Origin: a virus
Direction: 5' to 3' (one strand)
Virus record (IMG/VR): IMGVR_UViG_3300046492_000315
Location: 1-36,814 of that record
DNA length: 36,814 bases
In this document: positions 9,861 to 34,437 of the stretch, piece after piece
Layout of the letters: each line of letters starts with the position of its first letter
Position numbering within the stretch: the first letter of the stretch is position 1
The notes under the pieces: model-generated
What the model saw: the letters and a program-made list of their open reading frames with translations, nothing else
The model's database searches: none
What the model was told of the DNA's origin: nothing
Program-made: the position numbers and the translations under genes

Positions 9861-10535
9861 TCATGGTTTCCATTCCGGGTTATCCCACACGACCAACCCG
9901 TTTCTCTCTGGCGTGAGCGAGCGTGAGAAAAGCGCGTCGCTCTCGTGGACGATATAGGGCAGGTCCAGCAATGGCTTGTGCTGGTGAACGGATAGGTTGC
10001 CGACGAATATATAGCGTCTGATCTGGCTGAGCATTGCCACCTCATCGACGCCTATCACGTTGCCTCCACGCTGGTGTTCCGCTGCGTTGTATATGTGTGT
10101 GACCCACGCGGCGACCACTACCTCTGGCCGATGCCGGGCCACTGCTGCCTCGGCGTCCAGGCGTTCGACGTGCGGGCCATAGGTGACAACCGGCTGGCGC
10201 ATTGATCGATACAGGGCAATCACTGCCGGGTCTTCTTGCATGTGGTTATCAGTGCAGGGAATGCCGAGGGCTTTGCCGAGTACACCGTTCCCGCTGCCGA
10301 TCTCAATAGCGGAGCGGGTAGGGCTCGCCTCTAGAATCAACTCGTTGATCTTATCGACCAGCTCGACCGTGGGCAGACAGTACAGACCGTGACGCAGGCA
10401 AAAGCCGGACAGGTCCGCTTGTGAGAACTGCGCATAAAAGTCCATCGGCACCACGCGCAGCACACCGCTGTCCAGGGCTTGGGCATCGAGCGCGTCTTGT
10501 GCGCCCTGGCTGACTCTCAGAATCGAAGTGTTCAT
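9861..10535 (-). CDS. Moron: class I SAM-dependent methyltransferase-like protein
   Basis: The 224-residue protein is encoded against the direction of the surrounding tail operon. Residues 76-84 (AIEIGSGNG) match motif I of Rossmann-fold SAM methyltransferases, followed by VLGKALGIPCTDNHMQ and a VVVAAWVTHIYNAAEH segment at a motif-IV-like position. No DPPY-type DNA or rRNA motif is present, so the substrate cannot be named. The gene has its own promoter and lies between tail genes, the mark of a moron, possibly expressed in the lysogen. ATG 10535 has AGGT upstream. A longer frame to 10616 would run over the promoter and is rejected. Confidence 0.75.
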   Translation of the reverse strand: MNTSILRVSQGAQDALDAQALDSGVLRVVPMDFYAQFSQADLSGFCLRHGLYCLPTVELVDKINELILEASPTRSAIEIGSGNGVLGKALGIPCTDNHMQEDPAVIALYRSMRQPVVTYGPHVERLDAEAAVARHRPEVVVAAWVTHIYNAAEHQRGGNVIGVDEVAMLSQIRRYIFVGNLSVHQHKPLLDLPYIVHESDALFSRSLTPERNGLVVWDNPEWKP

Positions 10536-10572
10536 AACCGGACCTGTATTGGCGGAGAGGATTGGCCGCCAA

Positions 10573-19633: not shown

Positions 19634-21172
19634 ATGACCACATCCGCCGACCTCGGTATCAGCTACATCGCCGGCCAGCAAGCGCAACCGGAAATCACGC
19701 ACAACACTGCGCTCAACCAGATTCAGATTTTGCAGACCGGTGTTATCAGCGTCGCGCTCAATACTCCGCCCGGTTCCCCCGCGCAGGGGGACACATACAT
19801 TCTCGGTGCCAGTCCGACCGGGGCGTGGACAGGCCGGGCGAACTGTCTCGCCGGGTACTTCGGCACGGCCTGGGTGTTCGTGCCGGGCAATGATTCGAGC
19901 GGTACTGCTATCGCTATGGGCGCGCGGCACGAGGGCTTGAAGGTCTACAGCAAAGCCGACAACGCGCTGTATGTGTGGAATGGCACGACATGGGCCGCCG
20001 TCACGTCGGGTATGTCCAACCCCATGACCACCTCCCAAGACCTGATCGTCGGCGGGGCCAGTGGCACGCCGGGGCGTCTGGCGATTGGCACGAACGGCTT
20101 CGTGTTGACTGCCGTTGCGGGGGCTGTTGCCTGGGCAGTGGCGACCGGCTTCGCCAACCCCATGACTACGGCCGGCGACCTGATTCTCGGCGGGGCATCG
20201 GGGGCACCGGGCCGCCTGGGCATCGGGTCGACCGGGCAAATCCTGACCGTCTCGGGGGGCACGGCGGTATGGGCGGCCAACGCGGCCATGACTAACCCGA
20301 TGACCACGAGCGGGGATGTGATCTACGGCGGGGCGTCTGGCGTCCCGACGCGGTTAGCGGCCGGCACGAACGGGCACGTCCTGACGTTAACCGCTGGCGT
20401 CCCGACGTGGGCGGCGGTCGCCGCTGGCATGACAAACCCCATGACCACGGCCGGCGACCTGATTCTCGGCGGGGCGAGCGGTGCGCCGGGTCGCCTGGGG
20501 ATTGGTTCCACGGGGCAGGTGTTGACCGTCACGGGGGGCACCGCCGTATGGGCGACGCCGAGCGGGGGCAGTCAAGCCGGCATGGCGAGCGCCGCCGCGA
20601 CCTTGAATGATTTCCCGTTTTACACGGGCGTCGGCGGGTACACGTCGGGACCACTTAACAGCGCGACCCGTCTACATCTAAACCTCGTCTATCTTGATTC
20701 GGCGCTGACGTTCACCGACATTGTGATCGCCGTCCGAACCGGGTCGGCGGCGACTACGGTGGACGTTGGTATTTATAATTTTCTCGGGGCTGGCAAACCC
20801 GGAACGTGTGTGGCGAGCGCCAACTTTTCGACCGCCGCAAGTGGCCGGGTTGCCGTTACCCTCGGTGCTCCCGTGACCCTAAACCCCGGCCTATATTATG
20901 TGGCAATGCATGGGAGCACATCGCCTAGTCTCGCGATGTATTCTATGGCTAGCGCTTCGGTGCCGGGGCAGATTGCCGCGCTATCGACTAGTGACGCGAT
21001 GACCGCAATTGCTGCCGGGACCACCACGCTTGCGCTAATCCTGTTCAACGACGCGTCATTGCCGGGCGGGTCGTACACGCGCGGGATGGACCTCACGGGC
21101 ATGAACATAACCAGCGCGAACATGGTCGGTTACAACACCATCATTCCGGTTATTGCCCTCAAGAAACAATAA
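19634..21172 (+). CDS. DUF2793 tail fibre protein with four internal repeats
   Basis: The 512-residue fibre protein starts with a DUF2793 domain (about residues 1-125): LGISYIAGQQAQPEITHN, then PGSPAQGDTYILGASPTGAW, and GLKVYSKADNALYVWNGTTW. Four ~46-residue repeats follow (about 129-310), each opening NPMTT and containing GGASGxPxRLxxGxxGxVLT. The last ~190 residues form a separate beta-rich tip (SAATLNDFPFYTGVGGYTSG and onward) that should contact the host. It is the last gene of the late operon, the usual place of the receptor-binding protein. No chaperone gene follows. Confidence 0.88.
   Translation: MTTSADLGISYIAGQQAQPEITHNTALNQIQILQTGVISVALNTPPGSPAQGDTYILGASPTGAWTGRANCLAGYFGTAWVFVPGNDSSGTAIAMGARHEGLKVYSKADNALYVWNGTTWAAVTSGMSNPMTTSQDLIVGGASGTPGRLAIGTNGFVLTAVAGAVAWAVATGFANPMTTAGDLILGGASGAPGRLGIGSTGQILTVSGGTAVWAANAAMTNPMTTSGDVIYGGASGVPTRLAAGTNGHVLTLTAGVPTWAAVAAGMTNPMTTAGDLILGGASGAPGRLGIGSTGQVLTVTGGTAVWATPSGGSQAGMASAAATLNDFPFYTGVGGYTSGPLNSATRLHLNLVYLDSALTFTDIVIAVRTGSAATTVDVGIYNFLGAGKPGTCVASANFSTAASGRVAVTLGAPVTLNPGLYYVAMHGSTSPSLAMYSMASASVPGQIAALSTSDAMTAIAAGTTTLALILFNDASLPGGSYTRGMDLTGMNITSANMVGYNTIIPVIALKKQ
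20018..20560 (+). repeat. Four tandem ~138-bp coding repeats in the fibre gene
   Basis: Repeat units start at 20018, 20156, 20294 and 20435, spaced 138, 138 and 141 bp. Units 2 and 4 are the most alike at DNA level (for example both contain ggcgacctgattctcggcgg), which suggests recent duplication or gene conversion between non-adjacent units. Confidence 0.9.
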
Positions 21173-21192
21173 ACCCGGCACTAGTCCGGGTT
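21172..21192. terminator. Hairpin between convergent operons
   Basis: Arms AACCCGG (21172-21178) and CCGGGTT (21186-21192) with a 7-nt loop lie between the fibre stop and the end of the MvaT-like gene on the other strand. The following T-runs are short on both strands, so it is a moderate bidirectional terminator. Confidence 0.6.
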
Positions 21193-21197
21193 CACCT

Positions 21198-21617
21198 TTA
21201 GGCTTTCGGGTGTTTCGGTGGAGCGTCCTCTTCGTGAAATTTCCAAGACGCTACAACGTCCTTTCCATATTCGATGTTCCATTGATTGAACTTGCCGTCG
21301 CGATTGCCACGCACGACTAGCACCTCGCCGGTATGGGGGTTTTTGAACGTCCTGATTTTGACGCCGTTAAACACACGTTTCCCGGTGGCCGGCTTACTGG
21401 CCGGCTTACTGGCCGGCTTCTTTTCCGGCGCGATGTCCAGGGCCAGCAATTCATAGAGCGCAGCGCGCGAAGTCTTATGCTCCGTGCAGAATGCCTCTAG
21501 CGCAGCGTCAAGCTCTAGCGCCTTCCTGAGTTCCGGGTTTTGTTTCATTTCTTCAAAGGCGGTGAATTGCATTGCTAGCGCGCGCTCGGCGGCCTTGAAG
21601 TCAGCGATTGTTGCCAT
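21198..21617 (-). CDS. MvaT-like H-NS family nucleoid protein (phage-encoded)
   Basis: The 139-residue protein has the MvaT/MvaU layout. An N-terminal coiled-coil oligomerisation domain (FKAAERALAMQFTAFEEMKQ) occupies about residues 5-60. A flexible basic linker with KPASKPASKPATGK follows, then a C-terminal AT-DNA-binding domain with TFKNPHTGEVLVVRGNRDGK and QWNIEYGKDVVASW. The KNPHTGE segment and the R-G-N loop (103-105) are the marks of the AT-pincer of Pseudomonas MvaT. Such proteins silence AT-rich foreign DNA. A phage copy could complement, mimic or poison the host silencer. It is last in the reverse-strand cassette at the prophage end. Confidence 0.87.
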   Translation of the reverse strand: MATIADFKAAERALAMQFTAFEEMKQNPELRKALELDAALEAFCTEHKTSRAALYELLALDIAPEKKPASKPASKPATGKRVFNGVKIRTFKNPHTGEVLVVRGNRDGKFNQWNIEYGKDVVASWKFHEEDAPPKHPKA

Positions 21618-21644
21618 GATGGTGCCGTCCCTGTTGGGTTTGGG

Positions 21645-21884
21645 TTAGTTGGATTGTTTGGATTTGTTAGCCAATTTTTTTGGGTGAACCGAAGAGGCGA
21701 CAGTAATCGCGCCGATAATTCTGAGCACCGCAGCTGAGACACTCACGTCGCTCGCTGAATCGATTACGTCTTCAATCTGTTGCAACAGTTTCATCACCTC
21801 GTCGCGCTGCTCCATTGTTAGCCATGTAAACTGGCTAATTATTTTTTCCAGGGTTAATAGGTCCCGCGCCTCTTTATTCATCAT
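21645..21884 (-). CDS. Small cassette protein C, 79 aa
   Basis: The 79-residue protein is not recognised by family. Its core LTMEQRDEVMKLLQQIEDVI and the following DSASDVSVSAAVLRIIGAI align by eye with the proteins at 22081 and 21881. The shared layout is a Glu-rich helix, then a D-A-x-D motif, then a small-residue hydrophobic helix. It has a basic tail (KKLANKSKQSN) that the others lack. Starts and stops along the three genes overlap, so they are translated together. Function unknown. Confidence 0.7.
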   Translation of the reverse strand: MMNKEARDLLTLEKIISQFTWLTMEQRDEVMKLLQQIEDVIDSASDVSVSAAVLRIIGAITVASSVHPKKLANKSKQSN

Positions 21885-22084
21885 TGAGTCCCGCCATAGC
21901 TGACCATCTGTTCAGCGCTGACCAGTGCCAGCGCGACAAACACTAGATGCCGGCAATCGCCAGCATCATTAATCATCTTGCGGATTGAATCCGCATGTCC
22001 CTCAACGAGTGCGCGATAGGGTTGCTCTAGCAATTCGATATCGCCTAGCAAGCGCTGAAGCTTGTAATCGTTTCGCGTCATCAT
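21881..22084 (-). CDS. Small cassette protein B, 67 aa
   Basis: The 67-residue protein is not recognised by family. The order of elements, LQRLLGDIELLEQPYRALVE, then MINDAGDCRHLVFVALALVS, is shared with the neighbours. The D-A-G-D motif matches that of protein A exactly, and the hydrophobic helix after it (VALALVSAEQMV) aligns with ALTLVCARNLI. It overlaps both flanking genes by 4 nt. It probably arose by tandem duplication. No catalytic motif is seen. Confidence 0.7.
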   Translation of the reverse strand: MMTRNDYKLQRLLGDIELLEQPYRALVEGHADSIRKMINDAGDCRHLVFVALALVSAEQMVSYGGTQ

Positions 22085-22281
22085 TTCCCCCCACTTGTAA
22101 TATCAATCAAGTTTCGCGCACACACTAAAGTGAGTGCCATCGATGCGACTGCCTTATCGCCCGCCGCATCAACCGTCGCTTGCAACTGATCGACCAGCCG
22201 CATGACTTTGATGCGCTCGTCTTCGGCCAACAATTCGATGTGCTGCCGAATGACATAGAGATATGCGTGGTCCCTGTTCAT
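22081..22281 (-). CDS. Small cassette protein A, 66 aa
   Basis: The 66-residue protein is not recognised by family. It begins MNRDHAYLYVIRQHIELLAE and continues DERIKVMRLVDQLQATVDAA, then GDKAVASMALTLVCARN. Two amphipathic helices flanking an AAGD turn suggest a small helical bundle or oligomer. It overlaps the upstream coiled-coil gene and the next paralogue by 4 nt. Function unknown. Confidence 0.7.
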   Translation of the reverse strand: MNRDHAYLYVIRQHIELLAEDERIKVMRLVDQLQATVDAAGDKAVASMALTLVCARNLIDITSGGK

Positions 22282-22964
22282 GCTCGCGCCGCTCCAACGG
22301 TGTATTCGATTTCTTTAGAAGTGGTCTTTATGTGTTTGAGGACTTTAAGGCCAAGGCGTCGGGCTTTCTTGCCGGCTTCGATTTCTGCCTCGACGGCGGT
22401 CATATTGAACTCAGAGTGATAGAAAGGAATCTCCCGCCAATCCGCGTCCCGAACCTGGAGAATAACTTCAAGCTGGCGTTTAAATAGCGGCCGGCGCTCT
22501 ACGTGTTTACGTGTGGGCACTGCTGGTATGGACGGGGTAGGAACGCCAAGGGTGACGCGCAGCTCTTTCTCAAGTGCGGCCTGCCGCTTGGCTGTCTCGC
22601 TGGCCTGTTCAATACCGGGCGTGGGCGGTGTGATAGAGGGTATTGTTTGAAACTCGAAAGACGCGAGCAATAATTCCGGCCGCTCTTGCGGGGCCGGCTT
22701 ATCTATTCCGAGTGCTTCGCGCATTTGGTCCTCAAGTGACTTGAGGTCTTCGGTCTGGCGGGAAATAGCGGGGGCGGCGAATTCTATTTGTTCAGGGCTG
22801 AGTGACTGTAACTCTCGAAGTTGCCGCTTCTTCGCCTTGCGCTGTGATCGCAGCTCTTGAAGTGTGGGCGGTGCAGGTGGTGGCTCAACGGTAGAGAGAA
22901 AATCATGGATCAGGTGTTCACGGTGGGCGAACTGGGCAAACCCTAAACTTGAATTCAAAGCCAT
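22278..22964 (-). CDS. Charged, coiled-coil-rich protein heading the accessory cassette
   Basis: The 228-residue protein is not recognised by family. It has a short N-terminal region (MALNSSLGFAQFAHREHLIH), a Pro-rich stretch (VEPPPAPPTLQ), a strongly basic helix (LRSQRKAKKRQLRELQSL) and a second Pro-rich linker (IPSITPPTPG). The C-terminal globular part has VERRPLFKRQLEVILQVRDA, DWREIPFYHSEF and a basic end. No membrane segment is seen. It is the first gene of the reverse-strand cassette, behind a promoter at 23036-23064, and its stop overlaps the first small paralogue. DNA or RNA binding is possible from charge alone. Confidence 0.7.
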   Translation of the reverse strand: MALNSSLGFAQFAHREHLIHDFLSTVEPPPAPPTLQELRSQRKAKKRQLRELQSLSPEQIEFAAPAISRQTEDLKSLEDQMREALGIDKPAPQERPELLLASFEFQTIPSITPPTPGIEQASETAKRQAALEKELRVTLGVPTPSIPAVPTRKHVERRPLFKRQLEVILQVRDADWREIPFYHSEFNMTAVEAEIEAGKKARRLGLKVLKHIKTTSKEIEYTVGAARA

Positions 22965-23035: not shown

Positions 23036-23064
23036 TGTGTACCGTCCATCGGTGGAGGCGTCAA
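23036..23064 (-). promoter_or_regulatory. Candidate promoter for the accessory cassette
   Basis: On the reverse strand TTGACG (23059-23064) and TACACA (23036-23041) are 17 bp apart, about 70 bp upstream of the 22964 start. The -35 is good and the -10 is weak. It lies inside the stretch of GGTAC-type motifs near attP, so integrase binding could influence it. Confidence 0.4.
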
Positions 23065-23152
23065 TACCGTAGGTTATTTTTTTTGCCCCCTGGCCGACTT
23101 GACAGGTACGTCGGCCGATAGGGTACGGGGCCGGTCGCCCTGGTGCAACGAT

Positions 23153-23173
23153 GGTACAAATTTGGTACATCGG
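23153..23173 (+). repeat. 21-bp direct repeat, left of attP core (arm-type site)
   Basis: GGTACAAATTTGGTACAT then CGG occurs here and again, identical, at 23383-23403. The copies lie on opposite sides of the tRNA-like attP core. Paired repeats flanking the core are typical arm-type binding sites of tyrosine integrases. Each unit itself contains two TTTGGTAC/GGTAC elements. Confidence 0.7.
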
Positions 23174-23264
23174 ATGTACCAAATCATGGTGTATCAAGCT
23201 TCATGGTGATGAATGCTTGTGCAATGATTTCAATACCTTGACTGAAAAAAGTGAAGTAAATCAA

Positions 23265-23336
23265 CGGGCAAAATCGGATTCGAAATCCGTTGAAGTGGCA
23301 ACATTTCCTAGGGTTCAAATCCCTATCTCTCCGCCA
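23265..23336 (+). other. attP core: 3' portion of a tRNA-Ser(CGA) gene
   Basis: The sequence folds as the 3' part of a serine tRNA. It has an anticodon stem-loop with TTCGAAA (about 23275-23290; anticodon CGA), a 6-bp long variable arm (GAAGTG/CATTTC, loop GCAA), a T-arm (TAGGG, TTCAAAT, CCCTA) and an acceptor end TCTCTCC-GCCA finishing at 23336. The 5' acceptor strand and D-arm are missing, so it is not an intact tRNA. Tyrosine integrases commonly use tRNA 3' ends as attB, and the phage copy restores the host gene after integration. The int gene follows directly. Confidence 0.88.
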
Positions 23337-23341
23337 AAATC

Positions 23342-23376
23342 AAAGGCTTAGCGGCTTACCCCCGCTGGGCCTTTTT
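23342..23376 (+). terminator. Terminator between attP core and int
   Basis: Outer stem AAAGGC/GCCTTT and inner stem AGCGG/CCGCT are followed by a T-run (23372-23376). In the prophage it would sit just downstream of the restored host tRNA-Ser and could terminate its transcript, limiting read-through into int. Confidence 0.75.
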
Positions 23377-23382
23377 GCTTTT

Positions 23383-23403
23383 GGTACAAATTTGGTACAT
23401 CGG
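23383..23403 (+). repeat. 21-bp direct repeat, right of attP core (arm-type site)
   Basis: This is identical to 23153-23173. It lies 55 bp upstream of the int ATG, so integrase bound here could also repress its own gene. Confidence 0.7.
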
Positions 23404-23457: not shown

Positions 23458-24432
23458 ATGGCTACCTATCAAAAACGCGGCACCGCTTGGCGGGCACTGA
23501 TCCGGCGCAAAGGCTACCCAACCCTCACCGCTACCTTCGACACGAAGGCCGAGGCGCAACGCTGGGCGACGGAGCTAGAAGGCGATATGTCCCGCTCACG
23601 TTTTGTCGATGGCCGCGAGGCTGATCGCACTACGCTGACCAAAGCGCTCAATAGATACTTGACCGAAATCAGCGAACACAAAAAGGGCAAGAAGCAAGAG
23701 GCGACTAGAATCGCTCGCTGGTTACTTCATCCCCTCGCTGAGAAAAACCTCTCCGCTATTACATCGTCTGACCTTGCCGAGTATCGGGACGCCAGGAGTA
23801 AGGAGAAAGTATCCTCCGCAACTATTCGCCTGGAACTTGCAATCATCAGCCACCTCTACACCATCGCGGCGAAAGAGTGGCATATGGCCGGGCTGGTCAA
23901 TCCCTGCACTAATATTAGATTGCCGAAGGGTAGCCAAGAGCGGGACCGCCGCCCGACTACCAACGAACTCAAAAAGATATATGAGGCGGCCGGGGCGATT
24001 AATAGAGAGCTGCCGATCATTATCGAACTTGCGGCCGACACGGCAATGCGCCGCACTGAGCTGGTCATGCTGACGCGTGAACAGCTTCGGGGGCGGGTGG
24101 CATACTTCGAGGACAGTAAGAATGGATCGCGCCGCGCGGTGCCACTATCTACGCGGGCTCTCGAATTGCTCAAAAGTTTACCCGCGCGAATTGATGGCCG
24201 GGTCTTTAGTATCTCGCCGCAATCGGTCAGTAACTATTTCCCCCGCGCGTGCGAGGCGGCTGGCGTGGTCAACCTGCACTATCACGACCTCCGCCATGAG
24301 GCGACCAGCCGGCTGTTCGAGCGCGGCCTGGACATCATGGAGGTTGCAGCGATTACCGGGCACAAGACCCTGGCAATGCTCAAGCGCTATACGCACTTGA
24401 GCCCCGAGAACCTTGCCGACAAATTAGCGTAG
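23458..24432 (+). CDS. int: Tyrosine recombinase integrase
   Basis: The 324-residue site-specific recombinase drives integration into the host tRNA-Ser(CGA) locus. It has an N-terminal arm-binding region (MATYQKRGTAWRALIRRKGY), a SAM-like core-binding domain (about 65-160) and a catalytic domain with R198 (AMRRTEL), H276-x-x-R279 (HDLRHEA), H302 (ITGHK) and the nucleophile Y311 (KRYTHL). A beta-hairpin lysine is in EDSKNGSRRAVPL. ATG 23458 is preferred, since a longer frame would start inside the attP/repeat region. The gene converges with the reverse-strand excisionase-like gene, overlapping by 9 nt. Confidence 0.95.
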   Translation: MATYQKRGTAWRALIRRKGYPTLTATFDTKAEAQRWATELEGDMSRSRFVDGREADRTTLTKALNRYLTEISEHKKGKKQEATRIARWLLHPLAEKNLSAITSSDLAEYRDARSKEKVSSATIRLELAIISHLYTIAAKEWHMAGLVNPCTNIRLPKGSQERDRRPTTNELKKIYEAAGAINRELPIIIELAADTAMRRTELVMLTREQLRGRVAYFEDSKNGSRRAVPLSTRALELLKSLPARIDGRVFSISPQSVSNYFPRACEAAGVVNLHYHDLRHEATSRLFERGLDIMEVAAITGHKTLAMLKRYTHLSPENLADKLA

Positions 24433-33816: not shown

Positions 33817-34437
33817 ATGCAGGTTGAACACCGGAAAGTTTCCGACCTCGTGCCAAACGCGAATAACGCGCGGACGCATAGTGATGCTCAGGTCGCCCAA
33901 ATAGCGGCCAGCATTCGGGAGTTCGGATGGACAAACCCGGTCCTGGTGGATGGCTCAAACGGGATATTGGCGGGCCACGGCCGCGTCATGGCCGCCCGCA
34001 AAATGGGGCAGGAGACGGTCCCGGTGATCGAGCTGGGGCACCTCACGGAAACCCAGCGTCGCGCTTACATCCTGGCAGACAATAAGCTGGCGCTTAATGC
34101 CGGATGGGATGACGAACTATTGCGCCTGGAACTGGACGCGTTGCAGGAGCTGGGCGCGGACCTCGAATTGATCGGTTTCGACTTTGACGAGATTGAAGCC
34201 CTGTCGATTGACTGCGATCCGCTGGACATGATGCCGGTGTTGCGTGAGGGCGACCGAGAACCATTTCGGCAAATCTCGTTCGTCCTGCACGATGAGCAGG
34301 CCGAGCAGGTCGAGCGCGCTATCGCCGCCTCGAAAAAAATGGGGCCGTTTGGTGACACGCAAAACGAGAACAGCAACGGCAACGCCATCGCGCGAATTTG
34401 CGAAATATTTTTGACCTCGCAGGGAGCCGACTTTTGA
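33817..34437 (+). CDS. ParB-domain protein paired with Mom-like modifier
   Basis: The 206-residue protein has an N-terminal ParB/Srx domain: EHRKVSDLVPNANNARTHSD, then VAQIAASIREFGWTNPVLVD, and GILAGHGRVMAARKMGQETV with the GHGRxxAA nucleotide-binding box. RRAYILADNKLALNAGWDDE follows. The C-terminal part (FRQISFVLHDEQAEQVERAI) resembles tails found in phage ParB proteins fused or linked to DNA modifiers. There is no ParA or parS, so plasmid-type partition is unlikely. A CTP/NTP-dependent DNA-binding role in modification is inference. Confidence 0.85.
   Translation: MQVEHRKVSDLVPNANNARTHSDAQVAQIAASIREFGWTNPVLVDGSNGILAGHGRVMAARKMGQETVPVIELGHLTETQRRAYILADNKLALNAGWDDELLRLELDALQELGADLELIGFDFDEIEALSIDCDPLDMMPVLREGDREPFRQISFVLHDEQAEQVERAIAASKKMGPFGDTQNENSNGNAIARICEIFLTSQGADF

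Follow-up and report, generated by a model that had tools for sequence, protein, structure and literature searches.

A conserved partner gene and an MvaT-family gene in an attP-side phage operon: a possible phage-owned nucleoid/silencer module

A temperate tailed phage carries beside its attP site a five-gene operon that, on sequence comparison and predicted structures, we read with roughly even confidence as a phage-owned nucleoid/silencer module. Its core would be gene E, encoding an MvaT-family protein, and gene A, the conserved companion of MvaT-like genes, with three small proteins (B, C and D) as optional modulators. The window, i.e., the whole stretch of DNA that was analyzed, comprises 36,814 bases (an IMG/VR virus record) and encodes an integrase (23458..24432, plus strand; Phage_integrase, E 6.8e-24) and an S24/HTH repressor.

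The genes form one minus-strand operon, running from 22964 to 21198 and flanked by attP and a convergent tail-fibre gene. It consists of A (22278..22964; 228 aa), B (22081..22281; 66 aa), C (21881..22084; 67 aa), D (21645..21884; 79 aa) and E (21198..21617; 139 aa). ATGA overlaps join A to B, B to C and C to D, and E starts 27 nt past D, so the five reverse-strand genes with overlapping starts and stops described by the original prediction are all in place. Median omega against relatives was 0.10–0.32 for each gene, indicating purifying selection on all five and supporting them as real genes; B is the most constrained (0.10) and D the fastest evolving (0.32). A candidate promoter with a weak -10 (TTGACG-17-TACACA; 23036..23064, minus strand) lies just downstream of an A-tract within the conserved stretch upstream of A and is kept in relatives; it was found by eye and was not picked up by a consensus promoter scan. 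A terminator-like stem-loop (21168..21196, minus strand) separates E from the convergent tail-fibre gene. The attP region (23152..23403) contains perfect 22-nt direct repeats (23152-23173 and 23382-23403, 230 nt apart), kept in relatives, around a tRNA-Ser(CGA)-like 3' half at approximately 23273-23336, the anticodon of which was read by eye. This adjacency confirms the proposed position at the prophage end. The tRNA-Ser core had no exact match (attB host) among 84,980 genomes. The attP region also has an inverted repeat copy at 23173-23184, and elsewhere this integrating phage encodes a protein with a ParB N-terminal domain (33817-34437; PF02195, barely over the cut-off).

Protein matches assign E securely as a complete MvaT-family protein, composed of an N-terminal oligomerization domain (approximately residues 1-62), a linker and an MvaT_DBD (90-125), which bears out the MvaT-type protein originally proposed. 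It matched PF22055 with 35.2 bits (E 1.2e-8; curated cut-off 27), and the E-family profile matched both the solved MvaT C-domain (2mxe, E 7e-12) and the coiled-coil N-domain (5b52 residues 1-63, E 5e-9; 8h8h residues 1-50, E 4e-9). Since both MvaT ends match these solved structures, E is ruled out as a truncated antagonist. The AT-pincer of MvaT is formed by the non-contiguous residues R80, G99 and N100 (PMC6936261, PMC4466236). In an ungapped register with 2mxe these correspond to V86, N105 and R106 of E, and MvaT K105 and K108 to N111 and N114. The contiguous R103-G104-N105 of E, previously taken for the characteristic R-G-N loop, aligns with MvaT K97-G98-G99 (2mxe), one residue out of register, and is not the AT-pincer. 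Due to the changed pincer and lysine positions, we call E MvaT-like with a diverged DNA-reading surface rather than a canonical MvaT; with V, R, N and N in place of R80, N100, K105 and K108, AT-specific binding is not assured. When 50,697 phage records were searched with E, only two human-gut phage contigs matched, at 28-29%. Their MvaT-like genes (L024 5471-5836; L025 3259-3624) look closer to Pseudomonas-type MvaT, and the stretches fetched around them held no A homologue.

A and E occur together in every relative of the window's phage whose sequence continues for 2.8 kb or more past the tail protein (11/11), which makes the pair a fixed component of this genome. The locus had been described as an accessory cassette with emphasis on its small proteins; the conserved core is instead A with E, and only the small genes vary (0-4). 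An unrelated phage group, consisting of contigs of 47-84 kb plus one 4.4 kb fragment, has two tandem MvaT-like genes immediately preceded by a homologue of A (35-40% identity), without small genes; G001-G004 of this group each have two diverged MvaT-like copies. In two of its contigs the structural-gene set differs from that of the window phage, with tape measures >2,200 aa, and their large terminase is nearest to that of the Pseudomonas phages Lana/PMBT3 (~32%). No integrase was found in 6/6 records (G001-G004, G008, G009; 47-84 kb) and a ParA ATPase was present in 5/6 of them, which suggests that these are phage-plasmids. A thus adjoins MvaT-like genes in two phage groups, as the expected recurrence required, and based on its presence in the unrelated group the silencer-companion pair looks like a portable tool of long-term resident phages for handling DNA coating and gene silencing inside the host. 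The profile of A found no relative in 84,980 genomes, A and its L023 homologue matched none of 50,697 phage records, and the A carriers found are metagenomic contigs only.

Gene A matched no Pfam, PHROG or PADLOC family. Alignment of 19 relatives revealed a near-invariant MALNxxxGF start, followed by a helical acidic N-part, a variable low-confidence linker and a basic beta-beta-alpha-beta C-domain (residues 158-223); the acidic N/basic C charge split is the same as that of MvaT (PMC6936261). AlphaFold2 predicted the C-domain, mostly with pLDDT >90, as two strands (158-172 and 178-186), a helix (190-203) and a final strand (207-223). Among the 19 relatives K162, R163, A193, A197, A201, G205 and V208 of this domain are invariant, and K200 and R202 near-invariant. 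A match of the helical part to nucleosome assembly protein (E 0.12) is explained by helix composition.

The A-E unit has a GC content of 51-55.5% against 58-64% in its surroundings at 15/15 loci (the window and 14 related loci of both groups), and the lowest-GC 500-bp windows of the record fall in the operon and its upstream region; this AT-richness may stem from the way the unit was acquired instead of from silencing. The A C-domain occurs in two classes, whose distribution differs from that of the N-part. Identities of N-part and C-domain were 93% and 56% between the window and L005, 85% and 56% between L021 and L022, and 62% and 73% between the window and L017. The DNA-binding domain class of E changes likewise (L016 vs L021: 53% N, 71% C). 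All four combinations of A class and E class occur, and the natural reading of these alignments is that the C-terminal domains of both proteins have been swapped as modules.

The diverged DNA-reading loop keeps alive the reading of E as a counter-silencing decoy, which would join host MvaT oligomers through its N-domain and weaken or redirect them, with A and the small proteins assisting, so that host MvaT could not shut down an incoming or induced phage. The retained N-domain together with the lost AT-pincer residues fits this idea, as does the switching of the DNA-binding domain class between relatives, and phage LUZ24 is known to inhibit MvaT with its protein Mip (PMC4635203, PMC6936261). 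However, the C-domain is retained in an untruncated E that is under purifying selection as a whole, and the two different MvaT-like copies of the large phages suggest that DNA binding matters. We consider the decoy unlikely, though deserving of attention.

The best viral structural match (BFVD) of the A C-domain was the histone-like p6 of phi29-like phages (E 3e-3). Direct comparison with phi29 p6 (8pw4) gave Z 5.3 over 72 residues, where Z <8 can reflect a common arrangement; ribosomal eL20/LX matched as well (Z ~6), so the p6 match may be of that kind. Against a profile of eight p6 sequences, the C-domain scored an hhalign probability of 0.13, no better than shuffles. The DNA-contacting residues of p6 are R50 and K53 (PMC10899789), and the conserved K199/K200/R202 of A are located at the helix end, where these two stand. 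Setting the absolutely conserved A44 of p6 on A193 by eye puts R50 and K53 on K199 and R202, which we regard as a lead. Given this p6-like fold match and the presence of A and E in large phages without integrase, both proteins could be architectural, organizing the phage genome while it replicates lytically or is packaged, in the manner of phi29 p6, and not serving lysogeny or host regulation. In the window phage, however, the operon has the layout of lysogenic genes: it adjoins attP, runs against the late genes and has a candidate promoter and a candidate terminator to itself. ParA is encoded by the large phages, and the p6 profile test was negative; we rate a purely lytic role as distinctly improbable.

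Profile comparison places B, C and D in one small-protein family, in line with the proposed paralogy of the three, with C and D linked only through intermediate relatives. BLASTP related B to D (3e-7) and to C (7e-5), with no match of C to D, and comparison of family profiles gave probabilities of 75 for B-D and 43 for B-C. The single small protein of L017 scored 95 with C and 85 with B, that of L022 93 with B and 92 with D, and the fourth copy of L010 94 with B, while column-shuffled controls reached at most 6.6. The predicted fold of B is a three-helix bundle (pLDDT 84), and a structure search with this model returned no useful PDB match. Three copies are present in the window and most close relatives, none in L021, one each in L017, L018, L019 and L022, and four in L010. 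All small proteins found by search come from the attP-side locus of the window's phage group; its members differ too much to be traced by a pattern scan. Searches of 50,697 phage records returned nothing for B and only chance-level matches for C. PHROG matches were to phrog_9105/9106, both of unknown function (best E 0.002), and weak Pfam/NCBIfam matches, including DUF2067, DUF4404 and CSTF_C, were below cut-off and inconsistent among family members. With net charges of -4 to +4 the small proteins are not strongly acidic, unlike DNA-mimic anti-silencers (Ocr, Arn). An H-NST-like truncated silencer antagonist was rejected (hhalign against the E N-domain <1 for every small-protein family), and the Hha family was not among the Pfam/NCBIfam matches.

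The original prediction had also raised an anti-phage or superinfection-exclusion module, with the small proteins as effectors kept silent by E. The prophage-end location, the turnover and varying copy number of the small genes and the AT-richness of the operon are consistent with such a module. The operon gave no defence-family match, PADLOC models yielding a single chance-level one (D vs DpdF, E 0.017). It is the small genes that can be dispensed with, as A and E persist without them in L021 and the large phages, and they are under purifying selection, strongly so for B. Defence is the least supported of the three ideas put forward at first, and we judge it very improbable. That the five are unrelated lysogenic genes merely side by side is similarly improbable, although accessory genes do gather at phage ends, given the fixed gene order, the ATGA overlaps from A to D and the linkage of A and E in both phage groups, whose structural genes differ.

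We return to the nucleoid/silencer module as the reading that best accommodates these observations. In our model, where DNA binding by A, its contact with E, the part played by the small proteins and the sign of any expression effect are inferred, E would oligomerize through its N-domain and bind DNA through its diverged C-domain. A would be a second DNA-organizing protein beside it, assembling through the acidic helical N-part and holding DNA with the basic beta-beta-alpha-beta domain. In the resident phage both may coat AT-rich DNA, their own AT-rich operon first, and mix with host MvaT, keeping the phage cheap and quiet while host silencing shifts; such mixing is plausible based on the conserved N-domain of E, as for plasmid-borne Pmr. 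The small three-helix proteins might attach to A or E and adjust how these assemble, in a role loosely like that of Hha toward H-NS. The sequence fits self-silencing, silencing of host genes and a blunting of host MvaT alike as the outcome. Given the nucleoid-protein build of A and its constant pairing with E, a two-component phage chromatin is the simplest reading. It is favored by the matches of E to MvaT domains at both ends and above the PF22055 cut-off, by the pair in 11/11 relatives and A upstream of two MvaT-like genes in the second group, by the AT-rich unit in 15/15 loci, and by the MvaT-like charge split of A and the structural match of its C-domain to p6 with K199/K200/R202 at the DNA-contact positions. 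Against it stand the p6 profile result at shuffle level and the equal structural match of eL20/LX, the V, R, N and N of E at MvaT contacts R80, N100, K105 and K108, the restriction of A carriers to metagenomic contigs and of small genes to one of two groups, and an AT-richness that could stem from acquisition history. Of the initial interpretation, the MvaT-type protein, the three paralogues, the position and the recurrence are kept, and the anti-phage module finds no support; neither outcome named beforehand as refuting it, small proteins no more alike than chance or a cassette absent from other phages, was observed. A bolder version, which we offer only tentatively and think rather doubtful, is a two-protein phage chromatin in which A would found a new nucleoid-protein family with a p6-like DNA-binding fold beyond the phi29-like phages, the small proteins would be diversifying modulators, and exchange of the DNA-binding domains of A and E would keep the chromatin of co-resident phages separate.

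MvaT and MvaU of Pseudomonas and Pmr of pCAR1 share with E the N-terminal oligomerization domain, charged linker and MvaT_DBD, and pCAR1, like the phage, is a mobile element with its own MvaT-family copy; in contrast to them, E does not conserve R80, N100, K105 and K108, is carried by a phage and shares its operon with A and small proteins. Plasmids and islands can also contain MvaT-like genes, including a phage-related one in PFGI-2 (PMC2647930). Phage-encoded H-NS (EPV1, a Candidatus Accumulibacter phage; PMC3097231) and Lsr2 proteins (PMC7074111) have already been described. EPV1 H-NS and the Lsr2-type CgpS are, like E, full-length xenogeneic silencers on temperate phages, but they belong to other silencer families, with no A partner or small-protein array described (PMC3097231, PMC7074111). 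Phi29 p6 has a beta-beta-alpha-beta core that the predicted A C-domain may share, with basic residues close to where strand 1 begins and at the helix end. A adds a 150-residue helical N-part and linker and has no detectable sequence relation to p6, whereas p6 has an oligomerization hairpin and an acidic C-terminal tail, neither of which is seen in the A model. Hha/YmoA resemble B-D only in the proposed role, both being small helical proteins whose genes neighbor that of a silencer; no sequence or fold match to them was found, and B-D look like a separate three-helix family with as many as four copies in tandem. Mip (LUZ24 gp4) acts on the MvaT network, as E may, but is a small inhibitor and not an MvaT homologue. 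No paper on family A, the small-protein array or their operon with MvaT was found in the open literature, subscription papers being mostly outside the search, so the view that no named system has this composition holds there. As far as searched, none of the following has been described: the partner A, the array of small proteins, and their recurrence with a silencer across two phage lifestyles in the case of A.

Most silencers known from phages are lone genes with a guessed purpose, while here a recurring set with the fixed partner A spans two kinds of long-residence phage, one integrating and the other probably plasmid-like. With its natural variation in small-protein copy number and in the DNA-binding domains of both A and E, this set offers a way to test whether mobile elements bring along entire chromatin modules instead of lone stealth proteins, and which partners MvaT-type proteins need. 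A second gene is common to both phage groups (window 9861-10541, minus strand, vs L049 14176-14985; 61% identical), and the groups therefore probably meet in related hosts. This gene has no Pfam match, runs counter to the tail genes and encodes a nucleotide-binding-like GSGNG motif.
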